A stretch of 64,000 nt of DNA from contig JANGFR010000002.1 of NCBI GenBank assembly GCA_024707015.1, positions 1 to 64,000 on the forward strand. The letters are read 5' to 3'. Below are positions 11,611 to 18,117 of this stretch, piece by piece; position 1 is the first letter of the stretch, and the number at the start of each line of letters is the position of its first letter. The notes beneath the pieces are model-generated. The model saw only the letters and a list, made by a program, of their open reading frames with translations. It ran no database searches and was not told the origin of the DNA. The DNA is from Candidatus Culexarchaeum yellowstonense. Its GTDB lineage: Archaea > Thermoproteota > Methanomethylicia > Culexarchaeales > Culexarchaeaceae. The translations under genes were made by a program, and so were the position numbers.

Positions 11611-14085
11611 TCATTTAACTTCTGGTTCTGCTTCCATAACTCTTGAAATTCCACCGATCTTGCTAACTTGATAAATTGTGTCTGCAACTTCTTCAAGCTC
11701 TCTATCATGGGTTATTATTATCATCTGTTGCGTAATTGCTGATTCCCTGAAGTTTTTGAATACATCTATTAATACTCTTCTCCTCTCCTCGTCAAGGTGC
11801 ACTGTGGGTTCATCCATTATTACTGTTGAGAAGCGTTCAGCCAATGCTCTAGCCAGTGCAAGTCTCAAGGCTATTGCCACAGCAACCTTTTCCCCTCCAC
11901 TCAATAATTGTAGTGGCATGAAATCTCCACCCTTTGAAACATTAATTTCCAAATCTTCATCCATAGATATACCAGTTATGTCTAAATTGAATTGATCGAT
12001 GTAGTTTGTTGCCAGCTGTGAGATTAATGGTGTAATCCTCTGCCTTATAAGCTTCTGAATTCCATCCTTTGAAAATACTCCACGTATAATCTTTACTGTT
12101 TTTATTGCATTTTCAATTCTCCCAAGTTTTGCATCAATGCTTTCACGATCACTCCTCAATCTTTCAATTTCACTCTTCAAATTGTTTAGATCCCTATTGT
12201 AGCCATCAATAGCTTCCTCAATTTGCCTTATCTCCCCCTTCAATTCGCCGCAGATGCTTGTTAGCTTCGAAAACTTTTGATTAACTTCATCATACCTCTT
12301 GGCATCATAACCTAAATTTTTGATCTCATTTTCCACAGCATTATATTCATTTCTACGCTTTTCCAATTCCAAACTTAAGTTTTCGATTTGCTTTGAATAA
12401 TCATCATACCTCTCCGCTTCAACCCTCAAATTATTGTATTCATCAAGCCTCCTTTTTAGGAGTTCAAGTTCACGCTTAGGATCCTTCGGCTCGTATCCAA
12501 GACTTTTAACTATATCATTTAATTCAGATCCGCATGCATTTACCTTTGACCTGAGATCTTCCAGTTTGTTGGTGAGAATTGACTTTGCATCTTCAACCCT
12601 AAAGTTTAAGTCGCCCAATTCTGGAATTGAACCTACAAGTTCGCTTCTAACTCTATTTACGAATGATTTAAGGTTTTCAATATCCCTAACTTTACTTGTA
12701 ATTTCTGAGAAATTCTTAGTTTTGCTTTTAACTTCCTCAAGGTTCTTTGATAGTGATTGCAAACTTTCTTTGAGGCTATTCAATTCAAGCTCAATCTTTT
12801 GAAGCTCCATCGATATTTCTTCTTTAACACGCTCTTTATGCGTATCCGATAACTTTGTTTTGCATACTGGGCATACATCCAACTTTTCTATGTGATCAAT
12901 ATGCCCCTTCAACTCATTTATCTTTCCAATTCGTTCACCAATTTCACGTTGCTTCTCATTGATTTCATCTTGAATCATATTCTCCGAGTTTCGGAGTGTT
13001 TCCAGCATTTTCCTCAAAGCTTCCATGGAAGGCTCTGGCAAATACTTTAACACTTCATTGGATAAGTCGGCTAATCTTTTCTCATAATCCTCCAATTCCC
13101 TTAATTTATTGATATTTTCATTCAAGCTTTTCATATCGGAATTCAACTTCTCCATTTCATAGTAGATTTCAATATACCTCTCTAGTAGTGGAATTCTGGA
13201 AATCTCGTTTTTCATGACTTCAATCCTCTTCTTGGCATCCGCACATTTGGCTTGCTTACCCTTTAGCTCTTTAAGGGATTCCTCAATGCGTTTCATATTC
13301 TCCTCAATTCTCCCTCTCCTTTCACGCAGTTCATCATAACTCTTCTTCATGCCATCCAGCATCTCCTTCTCCATTTGTAGCGATTTAAGCTCCATCAACT
13401 TGGAGTTAAGTTCATCTCTACGTTTCGTCAGCTTTTCTTGGTGGGCTTTAATGTCCTGTGATAGCTTTTCTAGACGCTTCTTTAAAACTTCCATGGATCC
13501 ATCAATCCTCTTAGCTTCATTGGAATAAGTGTTCTTCATCTTTTCCAGGCTATCTATCACTTCACGCATCTTATCATATGCCTTCTCATATCTGTCCAAT
13601 CCCAGTATTCTACCTATAACCTCCTTCCTCCTACTTGGCTCTTCCTCTATTAGATTTGTAATTTCACCTTGACGTATGAATACTGAGCTTAGCAGCGTAT
13701 CCTTATCTATCCCAATTATCTTTAAGACTTCTTGAACAGTCTTAGTAGCTGAATCGGTTATTAGTCCAACGCCTTTGCATTGGAGTCTAGCATTAACTTC
13801 ACCACCCCTCTCCCTACGCCAATTCAAATTGTACTCCTTCCCATCAACTTCGAAGTTTAATTCCAATTCCATGGATTTAGCTCCAAATCTTATTAGATCG
13901 TCAACACTGCTGGCTCTACTCCTAACGCCTCTAAATCCAAGTAGTGAATGCATTATTGCATCCATTATTGCAGTTTTCCCAGAACCATTTGGACCCACTA
14001 GAACTATTACCCCTAAGGGGAAGTTCATCCTCGTATTTTCATGTGATAGGAAGTTTTTGATGGTGATATCCCTCAAAATAATCAT
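11611..14085 (-). CDS. rad50: Rad50 DNA double-strand-break repair ATPase
   Basis: This is an SMC-like ATPase of the Mre11-Rad50 complex. Walker A GPNGSGKT is at residues 31-38, the zinc-hook CPVC is near 403 at the apex of a long coiled coil, the ABC signature LSGGEKVAVAIALRLALA is near 726, and Walker B VIMDEPTVHLD follows. At 824 residues it is slightly short for the archaeal family because of a shorter coil. Its ATG overlaps the mre11 stop as TAATG, so translation is coupled. It is the last gene of the nurA-herA-mre11-rad50 operon for end resection. Confidence 0.96.
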   Translation of the reverse strand: MIILRDITIKNFLSHENTRMNFPLGVIVLVGPNGSGKTAIMDAIMHSLLGFRGVRSRASSVDDLIRFGAKSMELELNFEVDGKEYNLNWRRERGGEVNARLQCKGVGLITDSATKTVQEVLKIIGIDKDTLLSSVFIRQGEITNLIEEEPSRRKEVIGRILGLDRYEKAYDKMREVIDSLEKMKNTYSNEAKRIDGSMEVLKKRLEKLSQDIKAHQEKLTKRRDELNSKLMELKSLQMEKEMLDGMKKSYDELRERRGRIEENMKRIEESLKELKGKQAKCADAKKRIEVMKNEISRIPLLERYIEIYYEMEKLNSDMKSLNENINKLRELEDYEKRLADLSNEVLKYLPEPSMEALRKMLETLRNSENMIQDEINEKQREIGERIGKINELKGHIDHIEKLDVCPVCKTKLSDTHKERVKEEISMELQKIELELNSLKESLQSLSKNLEEVKSKTKNFSEITSKVRDIENLKSFVNRVRSELVGSIPELGDLNFRVEDAKSILTNKLEDLRSKVNACGSELNDIVKSLGYEPKDPKRELELLKRRLDEYNNLRVEAERYDDYSKQIENLSLELEKRRNEYNAVENEIKNLGYDAKRYDEVNQKFSKLTSICGELKGEIRQIEEAIDGYNRDLNNLKSEIERLRSDRESIDAKLGRIENAIKTVKIIRGVFSKDGIQKLIRQRITPLISQLATNYIDQFNLDITGISMDEDLEINVSKGGDFMPLQLLSGGEKVAVAIALRLALARALAERFSTVIMDEPTVHLDEERRRVLIDVFKNFRESAITQQMIIITHDRELEEVADTIYQVSKIGGISRVMEAEPEVK

Positions 14086-15206
14086 TACACATCAACCCCA
14101 AAGAACTTCCTCACAACATTTATGGCTTCATCCACCTCATCATTTACGAGGAGGTCTTGAAGCTCTAAAGCTAATCCAATAATTTTCTCATCACTTAAAC
14201 CATACCTCTTTAGGATCTCACCTATAAGCCCCCTCTGATCAATACCACCCTTAATTGCAGCTATTGATGGAAGCGATGCTTCCTCTACAAAACTTATCCT
14301 CGACGTTAGAATTCTACCCTTAATGGCATCATTAATCTTACCCATAACACTCTGCCTCTCCACATCCCTACATTTAATGTTAAGATGAATTATTGGAAGC
14401 TTATTTGAAAGCTTTGATGTGGAAGCCAAATTTTCATTTAAAGCCTTCAATGCATTACTCAGTCCACCCCTATCCATTACCTCCAGCTCCAAATCAATTT
14501 GTGGTCTAACATTCAAATCAACCTTCTGAACTTTAGGTTCATCACCATCGAAGTCTACGAGGAAGAAGCCCTTACCATCCTTGCGCCAAGAGGGGATATC
14601 ACTTTTACTATTTATCTCCGTTGAACCTGCATAAGCTAGGAATCCTCCGCCAAAGCGAACTAGGATTCTCGAGTGTATGTGTCCAAAAGCATAGTATGAA
14701 GCTGCCCTCGGAAGCTCATCCTCCCTAACCTCATAAGCCCCCTCGAAGGGGAGATATCTATCTATAGCTTGATGCATAACTAATATGGACTTCCTATATC
14801 CACTGGATATTTTATCAAACTTCCTTATCTCCTCCCTCAAGAGGTCAACCCCCCTCCCCCTAATATTAGATATTCCAGCTACCAGTAAACCATTGAAATC
14901 CATGTGCTCAAGGCAACCTAAACCCAAAACCCTAACATTATCAAAGAGGCTGTGGGGGTATAGTCCACGCCTCCTAGGCATATCATGATCCCCGAGAACA
15001 GATATGAATTTAGCCTTATCTGAAATCTTCCTAACAGCATCCCTAAATGTTTTGAGGGCTTTTATTGGTGGTAGTGGGGAGTCGAATAGGTCTCCTGAAT
15101 GAATAACTATGTCAACATCCTCCCTAAGAATAGCATCAACAGCTTCATTAAATACCTCATAGAAATCAGATTCCCTCTCATCAAGATTATACTGCCTATA
15201 CCCCAA
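14085..15206 (-). CDS. mre11: Mre11 nuclease; reading frame extends upstream to about 15236 without a canonical start
   Basis: This calcineurin-type phosphoesterase is the nuclease partner of Rad50. SGDLFD, LGDHD (usually GNHD), MHQAID and FGHIHSR provide metal ligands. The first ATG/GTG/TTG in frame is TTG at 15206, but the open frame continues upstream and encodes RIAHISDTHLG, the family's N-terminal motif with the metal-binding Asp and His. An in-frame TAA lies at 15241-15239. Where homologues have ATG this frame has TTT (15236-15234), five bases after a perfect GGTGAT. Real translation must begin at a non-standard codon (ATA at 15230 is the best candidate) or the base calls are wrong. Coordinates given are the conservative TTG start. 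Confidence 0.9.
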   Translation of the reverse strand: MGYRQYNLDERESDFYEVFNEAVDAILREDVDIVIHSGDLFDSPLPPIKALKTFRDAVRKISDKAKFISVLGDHDMPRRRGLYPHSLFDNVRVLGLGCLEHMDFNGLLVAGISNIRGRGVDLLREEIRKFDKISSGYRKSILVMHQAIDRYLPFEGAYEVREDELPRAASYYAFGHIHSRILVRFGGGFLAYAGSTEINSKSDIPSWRKDGKGFFLVDFDGDEPKVQKVDLNVRPQIDLELEVMDRGGLSNALKALNENLASTSKLSNKLPIIHLNIKCRDVERQSVMGKINDAIKGRILTSRISFVEEASLPSIAAIKGGIDQRGLIGEILKRYGLSDEKIIGLALELQDLLVNDEVDEAINVVRKFFGVDV

Positions 15207-15251
15207 ATGGGTATCAGAAATATGCGCTATCCTAAAGGTTTATCACCAAAA

Positions 15252-16847
15252 TTATCCTTCAATTAATTCCTTAATATGTTTACGCTCCTCATCCACCCTC
15301 TCCACCAACCTCTTCTCACTCTCCTCAGCCTCCCTTGAAGCTTCAGCAAGTTTTGAAACAACATCTATATCTGCACCACCCTCCATAGTCTCCCTAGGCC
15401 TAATCCTCACCATGACTGGAGCCTTAACAACCTCCCCAACTATCACCGCTTCACCAACATTTAATCCAGGGAGATCTCTAAGCAAGTCTTCACTCATCCT
15501 CTCAGAGCTAACCCTAACAGCCTCCTGATCCTCAGGATTCGTTATCCTCAAGATCATTTGACTATTACATTGACTTAAAACGTCTGGATCTATCTTTGAA
15601 GGTCTCTGACTTATGATTATGAGGAATAAGCCGAACTTTCTACCTTCAGCAGCTATGCGCTTAATAATGCTCTTTGAAAGGGTAGACTCCTTGTTTGGAA
15701 CAAATCTATGAGCCTCCTCAATAACTATGAAAACTGGATATGAATATCTTTGCGATCTAATGGCATTGAAAGTGTCGCTTAAAAGTTTAAATGCAATGTA
15801 ATCGGAAACTTCATCATCCAAACCTGACAAATCAATAATTGAGATATGCTTTGGTTTGAGTATGTTTAATATATTTGTGGTTGCATCGCCAAAAACCCTA
15901 ATTCTCTGAAGTTTCCTAACATACTTCAATGCCCTCATACAATCTTCATTATCACTGGATTCTAAAGCTTTGATTAAATCCCCCAAGCCATATGAATCCC
16001 CCATCCTATCCATAACTCTTTTAATGGTATTTTCTATGGCTGAAATTATGTTGGTCCACCTCTCCTCTATACCGCAAATTGTGGCTATATCGTCAACGCT
16101 TAAATCTGAAAACTTAATCTCATATGTGGAGATAGAACCTATATCAGCAGCATTATATCTCCCACTACTCTCAGGAGTTCTAAATACAGTAACCCTCTTG
16201 GAGTAAAAACCGCTACTCTTGCTACGTGAGAGGAAGACGTGATCTGCATGTGGATCTAGAACTATTGCAGTAGCCCCCTTCTTCAACAACTCCTCCAATA
16301 AAACCCCTGCTGCATAGCTCTTCCCAGCACCAGTCTGAGCCAATATTGCCATATGCCTCCTAAACCCCCTAATGGATATGCTTACTGGAACATCAACCCT
16401 ATTTATCAATGAACCAATATGTAGACTTTCTGAATCTGGATATGAGTAGAATTCCTTTAGGATACTTGATGGTGCCCTATAAACTTCATTTCCAGGGTGG
16501 ACAGCCCTCCTAGGCTGTAGGACTTCACCATTATAATTGAACCCCAAAACCCTAGCTTTAGCAAGGATCCTCCTATCCACAAGTCCAGCTTTAACAATTC
16601 TCTCAACAGCTTCATGCCTAGGTTTTGAAGAGAGATCCAAAGCTAAACTTGAGGACACTATCTCACATATCTGAGCTACAACCATAACATCAACATCATT
16701 GCCATCCACATTCTCCAAAGATCTCACAACAACATACTCCCACCTCGGGGGATACTTACCCTCATCAACTATGAAGTAAAAGTATGTGGGGCTAGCCTCA
16801 CCCACAACATATCCAAGTTTATCCAAACCTTCATGGATATCTGACAC
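15252..16847 (-). CDS. herA: HerA hexameric DNA translocase/helicase
   Basis: This FtsK-HerA family ATPase cooperates with NurA in DNA end resection. The N-terminal HAS-barrel spans about residues 1-150, Walker A AQTGAGKS is at 170-177, and Walker B VFIVIEEAHRF is near 365, followed by an arginine-rich RIAAEGRKFGLFLIIISQRP segment. The length of 531 is slightly above the archaeal norm, with a charged C-terminal tail. It overlaps nurA by 17 bases. Its stop lies seven bases before the ribosome site of mre11. The order nurA-herA-mre11-rad50 is a well-known archaeal arrangement. Confidence 0.95.
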   Translation of the reverse strand: MSDIHEGLDKLGYVVGEASPTYFYFIVDEGKYPPRWEYVVVRSLENVDGNDVDVMVVAQICEIVSSSLALDLSSKPRHEAVERIVKAGLVDRRILAKARVLGFNYNGEVLQPRRAVHPGNEVYRAPSSILKEFYSYPDSESLHIGSLINRVDVPVSISIRGFRRHMAILAQTGAGKSYAAGVLLEELLKKGATAIVLDPHADHVFLSRSKSSGFYSKRVTVFRTPESSGRYNAADIGSISTYEIKFSDLSVDDIATICGIEERWTNIISAIENTIKRVMDRMGDSYGLGDLIKALESSDNEDCMRALKYVRKLQRIRVFGDATTNILNILKPKHISIIDLSGLDDEVSDYIAFKLLSDTFNAIRSQRYSYPVFIVIEEAHRFVPNKESTLSKSIIKRIAAEGRKFGLFLIIISQRPSKIDPDVLSQCNSQMILRITNPEDQEAVRVSSERMSEDLLRDLPGLNVGEAVIVGEVVKAPVMVRIRPRETMEGGADIDVVSKLAEASREAEESEKRLVERVDEERKHIKELIEG

Positions 16848-18117
16848 GCCTATACCCCCTCGAAGTCACCCTAGCATTAACAATCTCCTCAAATTTAGAT
16901 AGATACATATCCTCAAAAACCCTCCTACCAAGCTTAACCATCCTATCAACACTCACAAGCCAAACATTATAGTTATCTAAACCACAATAACCAGCAGATA
17001 AAACTTTGAGTATGGGGCTAACATCAACGTCAACAGCTTCAGGCCACCTAAAATCAACGAATTTCTCATCAACACCGAAAAACCATGCGGGAACATCAAC
17101 CCTCATGGGAGTATCCCCCATAGATGGAAGAACGTGGAAGGATACTATGGCTGGAAGATCGTGAAGCTTAGAAACTACTCCAGAAGCCCAATCAACAAAA
17201 TCCCCTGAAATTGAGGAGTAGGGAAAAGCCGACCTCAAGAATTCAATTGGACTCATCTCAGCACGCTTGAATGCCCTAATAGTTCTAGGTGGAGGATTGA
17301 GCAATAATGGAAACGTGTAGCCAGTGGACTTGGCATATCTAAGTATAAGTTGGAAATCTGGTTTCCTATGGATCAATTCCATGAAAACCCTCTTCAAATC
17401 CTCTGGAAGCCCACTTAAAAGTTTTGCAGCATTCTTCCTATCATCAAAGACTTTGAAAATATAATTCTTAATTGAAAGGGCATCTAAACCAAGCTTAACA
17501 CCAACATCCACAGCCAACAATCCCAATATGAAGTCTCTAAAGAAGTGGGATGCACTACCCTTACTAACACCAATCAATGGAACATTAAACTTCATACATA
17601 AATCCATAAGCTTAATTAAATCATCAAAATATCTGATCATGAAATCCTTGTTGCTTGTTAAATTAAATTCCAATGGTACATGTGAAAGCCTACCATATAT
17701 TGATCCATCAAGGAGAATAACACCCCTAAAACCAGAATTCAAAGCATCTATGATTGTCAAATGCTCCAACCACTCCATAACTCTACCAACAAAATCACTG
17801 CCATCACCAGTAAAACAGAAATCAAATCCACAATCAACCCTACGATACGCATTCCCAGATCCAGTTAAACCCAAAGCCCTAGCCACATAGAAGAGCCCCC
17901 CATTCTCAGTACTCAAATGCCTCGAACTACTATCCACAGCCAAAACATTGAAATCCATACTTGAATCCCTGGAAAAACTGAATTTAACCCAATACCTATC
18001 AAAATAGTCCCCTAAAGCTCCACTTAAATCACGGTCTCCATGAATATCATATAGACTCCTAAAAGCATTGGCCTTCAAACATAAATCCTTAATATACATA
18101 TCTAGAAACTCAGGCAA
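16831..18117 (-). CDS. nurA: NurA 5'-3' nuclease
   Basis: NurA is a toroidal dimeric nuclease that is fed DNA by HerA. The catalytic region shows LAVDSSSRH with Asp62 and VILLDGSIYGRL with Asp137; the remaining conserved acids lie in later segments such as ISGDFVDW. At 428 residues it is near the upper range for the family. Translation probably starts at TTG 18117, behind GGTGTGAGG. It is the first gene of the repair operon; an AT-rich TATA-like TTTATTAAG lies about 50 bases upstream. Confidence 0.9.
   Translation of the reverse strand: MPEFLDMYIKDLCLKANAFRSLYDIHGDRDLSGALGDYFDRYWVKFSFSRDSSMDFNVLAVDSSSRHLSTENGGLFYVARALGLTGSGNAYRRVDCGFDFCFTGDGSDFVGRVMEWLEHLTIIDALNSGFRGVILLDGSIYGRLSHVPLEFNLTSNKDFMIRYFDDLIKLMDLCMKFNVPLIGVSKGSASHFFRDFILGLLAVDVGVKLGLDALSIKNYIFKVFDDRKNAAKLLSGLPEDLKRVFMELIHRKPDFQLILRYAKSTGYTFPLLLNPPPRTIRAFKRAEMSPIEFLRSAFPYSSISGDFVDWASGVVSKLHDLPAIVSFHVLPSMGDTPMRVDVPAWFFGVDEKFVDFRWPEAVDVDVSPILKVLSAGYCGLDNYNVWLVSVDRMVKLGRRVFEDMYLSKFEEIVNARVTSRGYRRVRYP

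Follow-up and report, generated by a model that had tools for sequence, protein, structure and literature searches.

A probable UUU start codon for mre11 in the archaeal genus Culexarchaeum and non-canonical nusA starts across its class

In Culexarchaeum, a genus of hot-spring archaea, the key DNA-repair protein Mre11 is probably translated from a UUU codon that is anchored by a Shine-Dalgarno (SD) sequence, as judged from sequence comparison. The mre11 frame contains no ATG, GTG or TTG ahead of its metal-binding motif in any of three species, and the TTT at the position of the expected start is kept in all of them. The relaxed choice of start codon looks real, and a sequence error does not look like its cause.

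The mre11 frame and its product

The window, which is the whole 64,000-nt stretch of DNA analysed, originates from a MAG of the genus Culexarchaeum, and Ca. Culexarchaeum nevadense (L002) is the nearest named relative found, with 87% amino-acid identity in Mre11. Two other members of the genus also have the gene, G001 (90% identity) and G002 (87%), the latter of which carries the same contig as L002. The three-species comparison comprises the own genome, G001 and G002, all three of which are MAGs. The gene order nurA-herA-mre11-rad50 is intact on the minus strand according to the ORF map and Pfam matches, in agreement with a preliminary description of this DNA that considered rad50, herA and nurA intact around mre11. 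No Rfam family was found in the window, and no further copies of the mre11 leader were found in viral contigs. The features are as follows.

14085-15236, minus strand: proposed mre11 coding sequence of 383 aa, running from the TTT start to a TAA stop
15234-15236, minus strand: TTT, the codon proposed for initiation, unchanged across three species, 5 nt after GGTGAT, with GTG at the same position in G006
15242-15247, minus strand: GGTGAT Shine-Dalgarno sequence, complementary to the 16S 3' end GGATCACCTCCT
15252-15254, minus strand: herA stop codon TAA, 15 nt before TTT, in the same frame as mre11
15244-15246, minus strand: GTG of an overlapping frame (GTG ATA AAC CTT TAG), the start in the rival +1 frameshift model
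15232-15237, minus strand: CTT TAG, prfB-like potential +1 slip site of the rival model, conserved in three species
15204-15206, minus strand: TTG, first in-frame canonical start, rejected; TTA in G001; its use would remove D8 and H10
15252-16847, minus strand: herA, upstream cistron (Pfam DUF87/HerA central domain, E 9e-37)
16831-18117, minus strand: nurA (Pfam NurA, E 1e-9)
11611-14085, minus strand: rad50, the next cistron downstream, which starts at the stop of mre11 (TAATG); Pfam SMC_N, AAA_23 and Rad50 zinc hook

By homology, the product is an archaeal Mre11. It matches NCBIfam Mre11_Sulfo (E 9e-77, residues 3-380) and the Mre11 chains of PDB entries 3auz and 4tug (E 1e-54, from residue 3), and its Metallophos Pfam match begins at residue 1. 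The protein combines a metallophosphoesterase core with an N-terminal DxH (D8 and H10 in HISDTHLG), and its gene has rad50, herA and nurA as operon partners. In the motif LGDHDMPRR, encoded at about 14995-14970 of the window, GDHD replaces the usual metal-ligand motif GNHD/GNHE (Asn to Asp); Methanocaldococcus has GNHEMPRR.

The open mre11 frame spans 15239 to 14085, and its codons from the herA stop onward read TAA TTT TGG TGA TAA ACC TTT AGG ATA GCG CAT. The preliminary description had rightly noticed an in-frame TAA here, and its position is 15242-15240, one base from the 15241-15239 given there; the other coordinates of that description check. Only ACC and TTT remain between this stop and AGG, and therefore no codon upstream of TTT/ACC can be the mre11 start in that frame. 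Read-through from herA, which shares the frame, was rejected because TAA, TGA and TAA stand between. The first in-frame ATG, GTG or TTG is the TTG at 15206-15204, downstream of D8 and H10, which confirms the earlier placement of this codon beyond the metal ligands. The claim that mre11 lacks a canonical start at its conserved N-terminus (RIAHISDTHLG) is thus borne out, and both other species have the same layout, with TTT in answer to the suggestion that relatives be inspected for a non-ATG codon. The three species have GGTGAT[A/C]AACCTTTAG[G/A]AT in common, and the motif GGTGATMAACCTTTAGRAT was found in three separate genomes. At the mre11 start, TTT was seen solely in this genus, and the G006 homologue has GTG at exactly the TTT position (GTG CTA GTA GCG CAC).

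The selection acting on the gene bears directly on where translation begins. Over the whole gene, the three species pairs give dS of 0.41-0.67, dN of 0.06-0.07 and dN/dS of 0.09-0.15 (quoted as 0.11), and codons 2-12 contain 2, 3 and 5 synonymous changes and 0 non-synonymous changes in the three pairwise comparisons. mre11 is under strong purifying selection, including codons 2-12. The synonymous changes include Arg2 (AGG/AGA) and Ile3 (ATA/ATC); therefore, the protein should include both residues, and translation should begin before codon 2.

Shine-Dalgarno register and initiation at UUU

How could a UUU codon be selected as a start? The 16S 3' end of the own genome reads GGATCACCTCCT, and a spacing scan covered the in-frame codons that follow GGTGAT near the 5' ends of 1500 long ORFs. 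At a distance of 5 nt, 24 of 39 such codons are ATG, GTG or TTG, at 4 nt 24 of 50 are, and at spacings of at least 7 nt the canonical share is approximately 3-12%, which is at or near background. Registers 14-15 hold 135 of the 257 SD-anchored canonical starts. The TTT lies exactly 5 nt after a perfect GGTGAT, as the preliminary description had reported with coordinates that check, and ATA 15230 lies 11 nt after it. TTG is the commonest start at the 5-nt spacing (14 of 24), and a change from TTG to TTT is therefore a plausible single-step origin. Genome-wide, 52 SD motifs point at a non-canonical codon lying ahead of the first canonical start, against 18-107 for shuffled motifs. Given this lack of excess, such starts are rare, and single genes have to be judged by conservation. 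mre11 shows what is expected of a non-canonical start: no in-frame ATG, GTG or TTG gives the conserved N-terminus, the SD register is correct and the codon is kept in relatives. The earlier suggestion that translation starts at a non-standard codon is thereby supported by both the three-species conservation and the SD register.

We propose that the GGUGAU sequence would put UUU into the ribosomal P site, where the initiator Met-tRNA may pair with it chiefly via the central U. The ancestral mre11 start was probably UUG, from which one third-base change gives UUU. The same SD sequence may also recapture ribosomes that terminate on herA 15 nt upstream, which would then reinitiate. A poor UUU codon would still yield enough Mre11, although expression is probably reduced relative to HerA and Rad50. 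Two points count against UUU, namely its two mismatches with the CAU anticodon and the reported discrimination of aIF1 against non-canonical starts in Sulfolobus (cited in a passage of PMC6237735). Furthermore, the TTT, its preceding C and the GTG/CTT/TAG frame do not vary among the three species, a pattern that a frameshift model predicts likewise.

Two other candidates at this site were tried and rejected. For a special initiator tRNA, ARAGORN gave two CAT tRNAs among the matches listed for the parts scanned, none of them unusual. For a stable RNA structure at the mre11 start, the z-score is -0.11.

Non-canonical starts in other genes of the class

Loci were sought in which an SD sequence in optimal register points at the same non-canonical codon in the own and sister genomes. 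Several were returned, and mre11, folD, nusA and truA were picked as convincing by their known N-termini. The preliminary description had not noticed this recurrence in further genes of the genome and class. The folD start is ATT in all three species (own, G001 and G002), the corresponding codon of G005 is ATG, and the nusA start is ATC in those three species. A TTG at codon 6 of the own nusA is TTA in G002, which has no ATG, GTG or TTG in its first 20 codons. truA starts with CTG in two species (own and G002). The family matches begin at residue 3 in FolD, 3 in NusA and 7 in TruA. An upstream stop lies 1 nt before the folD ATT, and an upstream ORF overlaps the starts of nusA, mnt and truA, so that the close coupling seen at herA-mre11 recurs at these genes. 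Among the starts of this genome, the mre11 UUU would be the most extreme instance of a broader third-base relaxation in the class, with folD AUU, nusA AUC and truA CUG in this genome and nusA UUU, UUC, UUA, GUU, AUA and AUU in relatives.

Several further loci of this genome are recorded as observations. An amidohydrolase with ATA ahead of its HxH motif and an MNT nucleotidyltransferase with ATC are candidates judged from the own genome. A YchF/Obg-like GTPase (G000:C1:423961-425181, minus strand) is another candidate from the own genome, with no in-frame ATG, GTG or TTG ahead of Walker A; its upstream GGAGGAG is absent in the sister genome G002. A second GTPase paralogue (G000:C2:153888-155105 and G001:C6:54332-55549) has one internal TAG in the match in both species. 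At about 790180-790230 of G000:C1 (plus strand), a HAD-like LDFDGV motif is out of frame with the following long ORF, a possible frameshift.

The nusA start varies across the class. At the codon position where M-P-x-I-[KR] has its initiator Met, 25 class genomes have ATG (4), GTG (5), TTG (4), ATC (4), ATA (5), TTT (2) or GTT (1). Eight further class genomes, a non-random sample found by a pattern with the start codon free and other bases fixed, have TTT (2), TTA (2), TTC, ATA, ATT and ATC in the matched strings. nusA is thus non-canonical in 20 of the 33 class genomes examined, or in 19 should G004 start at a GTG that lies two codons further upstream. These codons are usually in SD register. 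Further downstream, the first canonical codon is in most cases the ATG of DEMR, and starting there would remove a conserved stretch. In nusA, folD, truA and mre11, every non-canonical start seen keeps T as its middle base and differs from ATG, GTG or TTG by third- or first-base changes, as would be expected if Met-tRNAi decoded these codons with relaxed reading of the third base. Outside the class, within the same phylum, the same search pattern gave nusA strings that appear to start with ATT in G219 and with CTG in G256 and G392, and non-canonical nusA starts may reach beyond the class.

Ribosomal-protein genes are the usual operon neighbours of nusA, and a weak nusA start would there lower one product. 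The chances are about even that start selection in this class, which holds Culexarchaeum and its methanomethylicial relatives, no longer needs a third-base G. Where a strong SD sequence, often by an upstream stop, sets the register, translation would start at any NUN codon, UUU, UUC, UUA and GUU among them, and nusA, mre11, folD and others would have drifted through NUN, possibly for low output within an operon. Gene callers rely on the assumption that archaeal genes start with AUG, GUG or UUG. If NUN starts serve essential genes class-wide, gene starts in the class are misannotated, and the Mre11 called there would lack its metal ligands. If so, the SD sequence can dominate archaeal start selection with mainly the middle base being read, and the roles of aIF1 and reinitiation become directly testable. 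Non-canonical starts may then also be a general way to lower one cistron within an operon.

Alternative readings and comparison with known systems

Could the three-species pattern arise from a programmed +1 frameshift instead of initiation at UUU? Translation would start at GTG 15246 (or TTG 15249) and run through GTG ATA AAC CTT until UAG is met, where Leu-tRNA would slip from CUU to UUU to give the product MINLRIAHISDTHLG. We regard this reading, the main rival, as unlikely, although it has several points in its favor. Its product has a typical Mre11 N-terminus, all three species preserve GTG ATM AAC CTT TAG, in which the ATA/ATC difference is synonymous, and the CUU-stop, missed in the preliminary description, is the slip site of prfB. 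However, the proposed GTG is itself part of the SD sequence and has a weak AGGA 8 nt upstream as its possible SD sequence. The GGT core is 7 nt from CTT, and GGTGAT lies approximately 5 nt farther from CTT than the prfB stimulator does but at the initiation optimum for TTT. The other genes point both ways. The nusA UUU starts also lie within CTTT, with ATG in the slip frame in G010, G025 and G028, but the alternative frame of nusA in G012, G026, G032 and G033 has no ATG, GTG or TTG before the slip point in the strings seen, and folD and the nusA of the own genus, which have no slip site, are left unexplained. A C stands at -1 of all UUN and GUU starts found (mre11 and eight nusA), with -2 and -3 varying; of the SD-anchored TTG starts in this genome, just 7 of 80 are preceded by C. 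This shared C speaks slightly for slippage, and it may be explained by common descent. Conservation of the 22-nt leader did not separate UUU from a frameshift, the divergence (about 4% and 13%) being too low. A single programmed frameshift has been reported in archaea, a -1 event, and no other (PMC8211752).

Initiation at AUA/AUC 15230, the codon that the preliminary description considered best placed, would give the product MAHISDTHLG and is very unlikely. These codons have a single mismatch, and both occur as nusA starts in the class. However, the codon, which is ATC in C. nevadense, follows GGTGAT at 11 nt, where starts are not enriched; the preceding Arg2 codon changes synonymously only and so appears translated; and part of the first beta strand would be lost. 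The best-placed codon is TTT, which was noted at the time but passed over. A sequencing or assembly error, also raised earlier, or a pseudogene is hardly credible: all three genomes are MAGs, but they agree on the same feature despite dS of 0.41-0.67 with dN/dS of about 0.1, rad50, herA and nurA are intact, and a genome search found no second Mre11 in the own genome. The internal TTG 15206, the first in-frame canonical codon, can be dismissed almost outright as the start of a truncated protein without the first metal ligands, since it is TTA in G001 and the residues upstream of it, including D8 and H10, are under purifying selection; G001 keeps its DTH motif, contrary to the pattern of relatives starting at TTG and lacking DTH that had been named as evidence against a non-standard start.

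Initiation at UUU, our preferred reading, can be set against characterized systems. The protein shares nuclease-core homology, the HISDTHLGYRQYN motif and the mre11-rad50-herA-nurA cluster with the archaeal Mre11 of Methanocaldococcus (3auz and 4tug) and Pyrococcus (1ii7), and differs from them in its start codon and in GDHD for GNHD/E. The stimulating SD sequence of prfB (RF2) lies approximately 3 nt from the slip codon. mre11 shares with the prfB +1 frameshift a slippery CUU, an in-frame stop and an upstream SD-like motif; however, its SD spacing is of the initiation type, its stop is UAG instead of UGA and the other affected genes are without a slip site. With archaeal SD-leadered initiation, for which a review lists AUG, GUG and UUG as starts (PMC7531240), mre11 shares the GGUGAU/16S pairing and the optimal spacing seen at other genes of this genome, and its P-site codon lies outside that set. 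The literature searched, mainly open-access papers, contained no mention of UUU, UUC, UUA or GUU as natural starts, in archaea or elsewhere.

Natural non-canonical starts have been proven elsewhere, including infC AUU in E. coli and AUC in Streptomyces, and Streptomyces sigR GUC (PMC5472188). These genes likewise have a conserved start other than AUG, GUG or UUG after a ribosome-binding site. The sigR GUC differs from AUG at two positions, as UUU does, and is experimentally proven (PMC5472188), whereas the mre11 UUU start is predicted from sequence. Furthermore, infC and sigR are bacterial, archaeal initiation depends on aIF1, aIF1A and aIF2 instead of IF3, and the starts described here occur in several genes and many genera.
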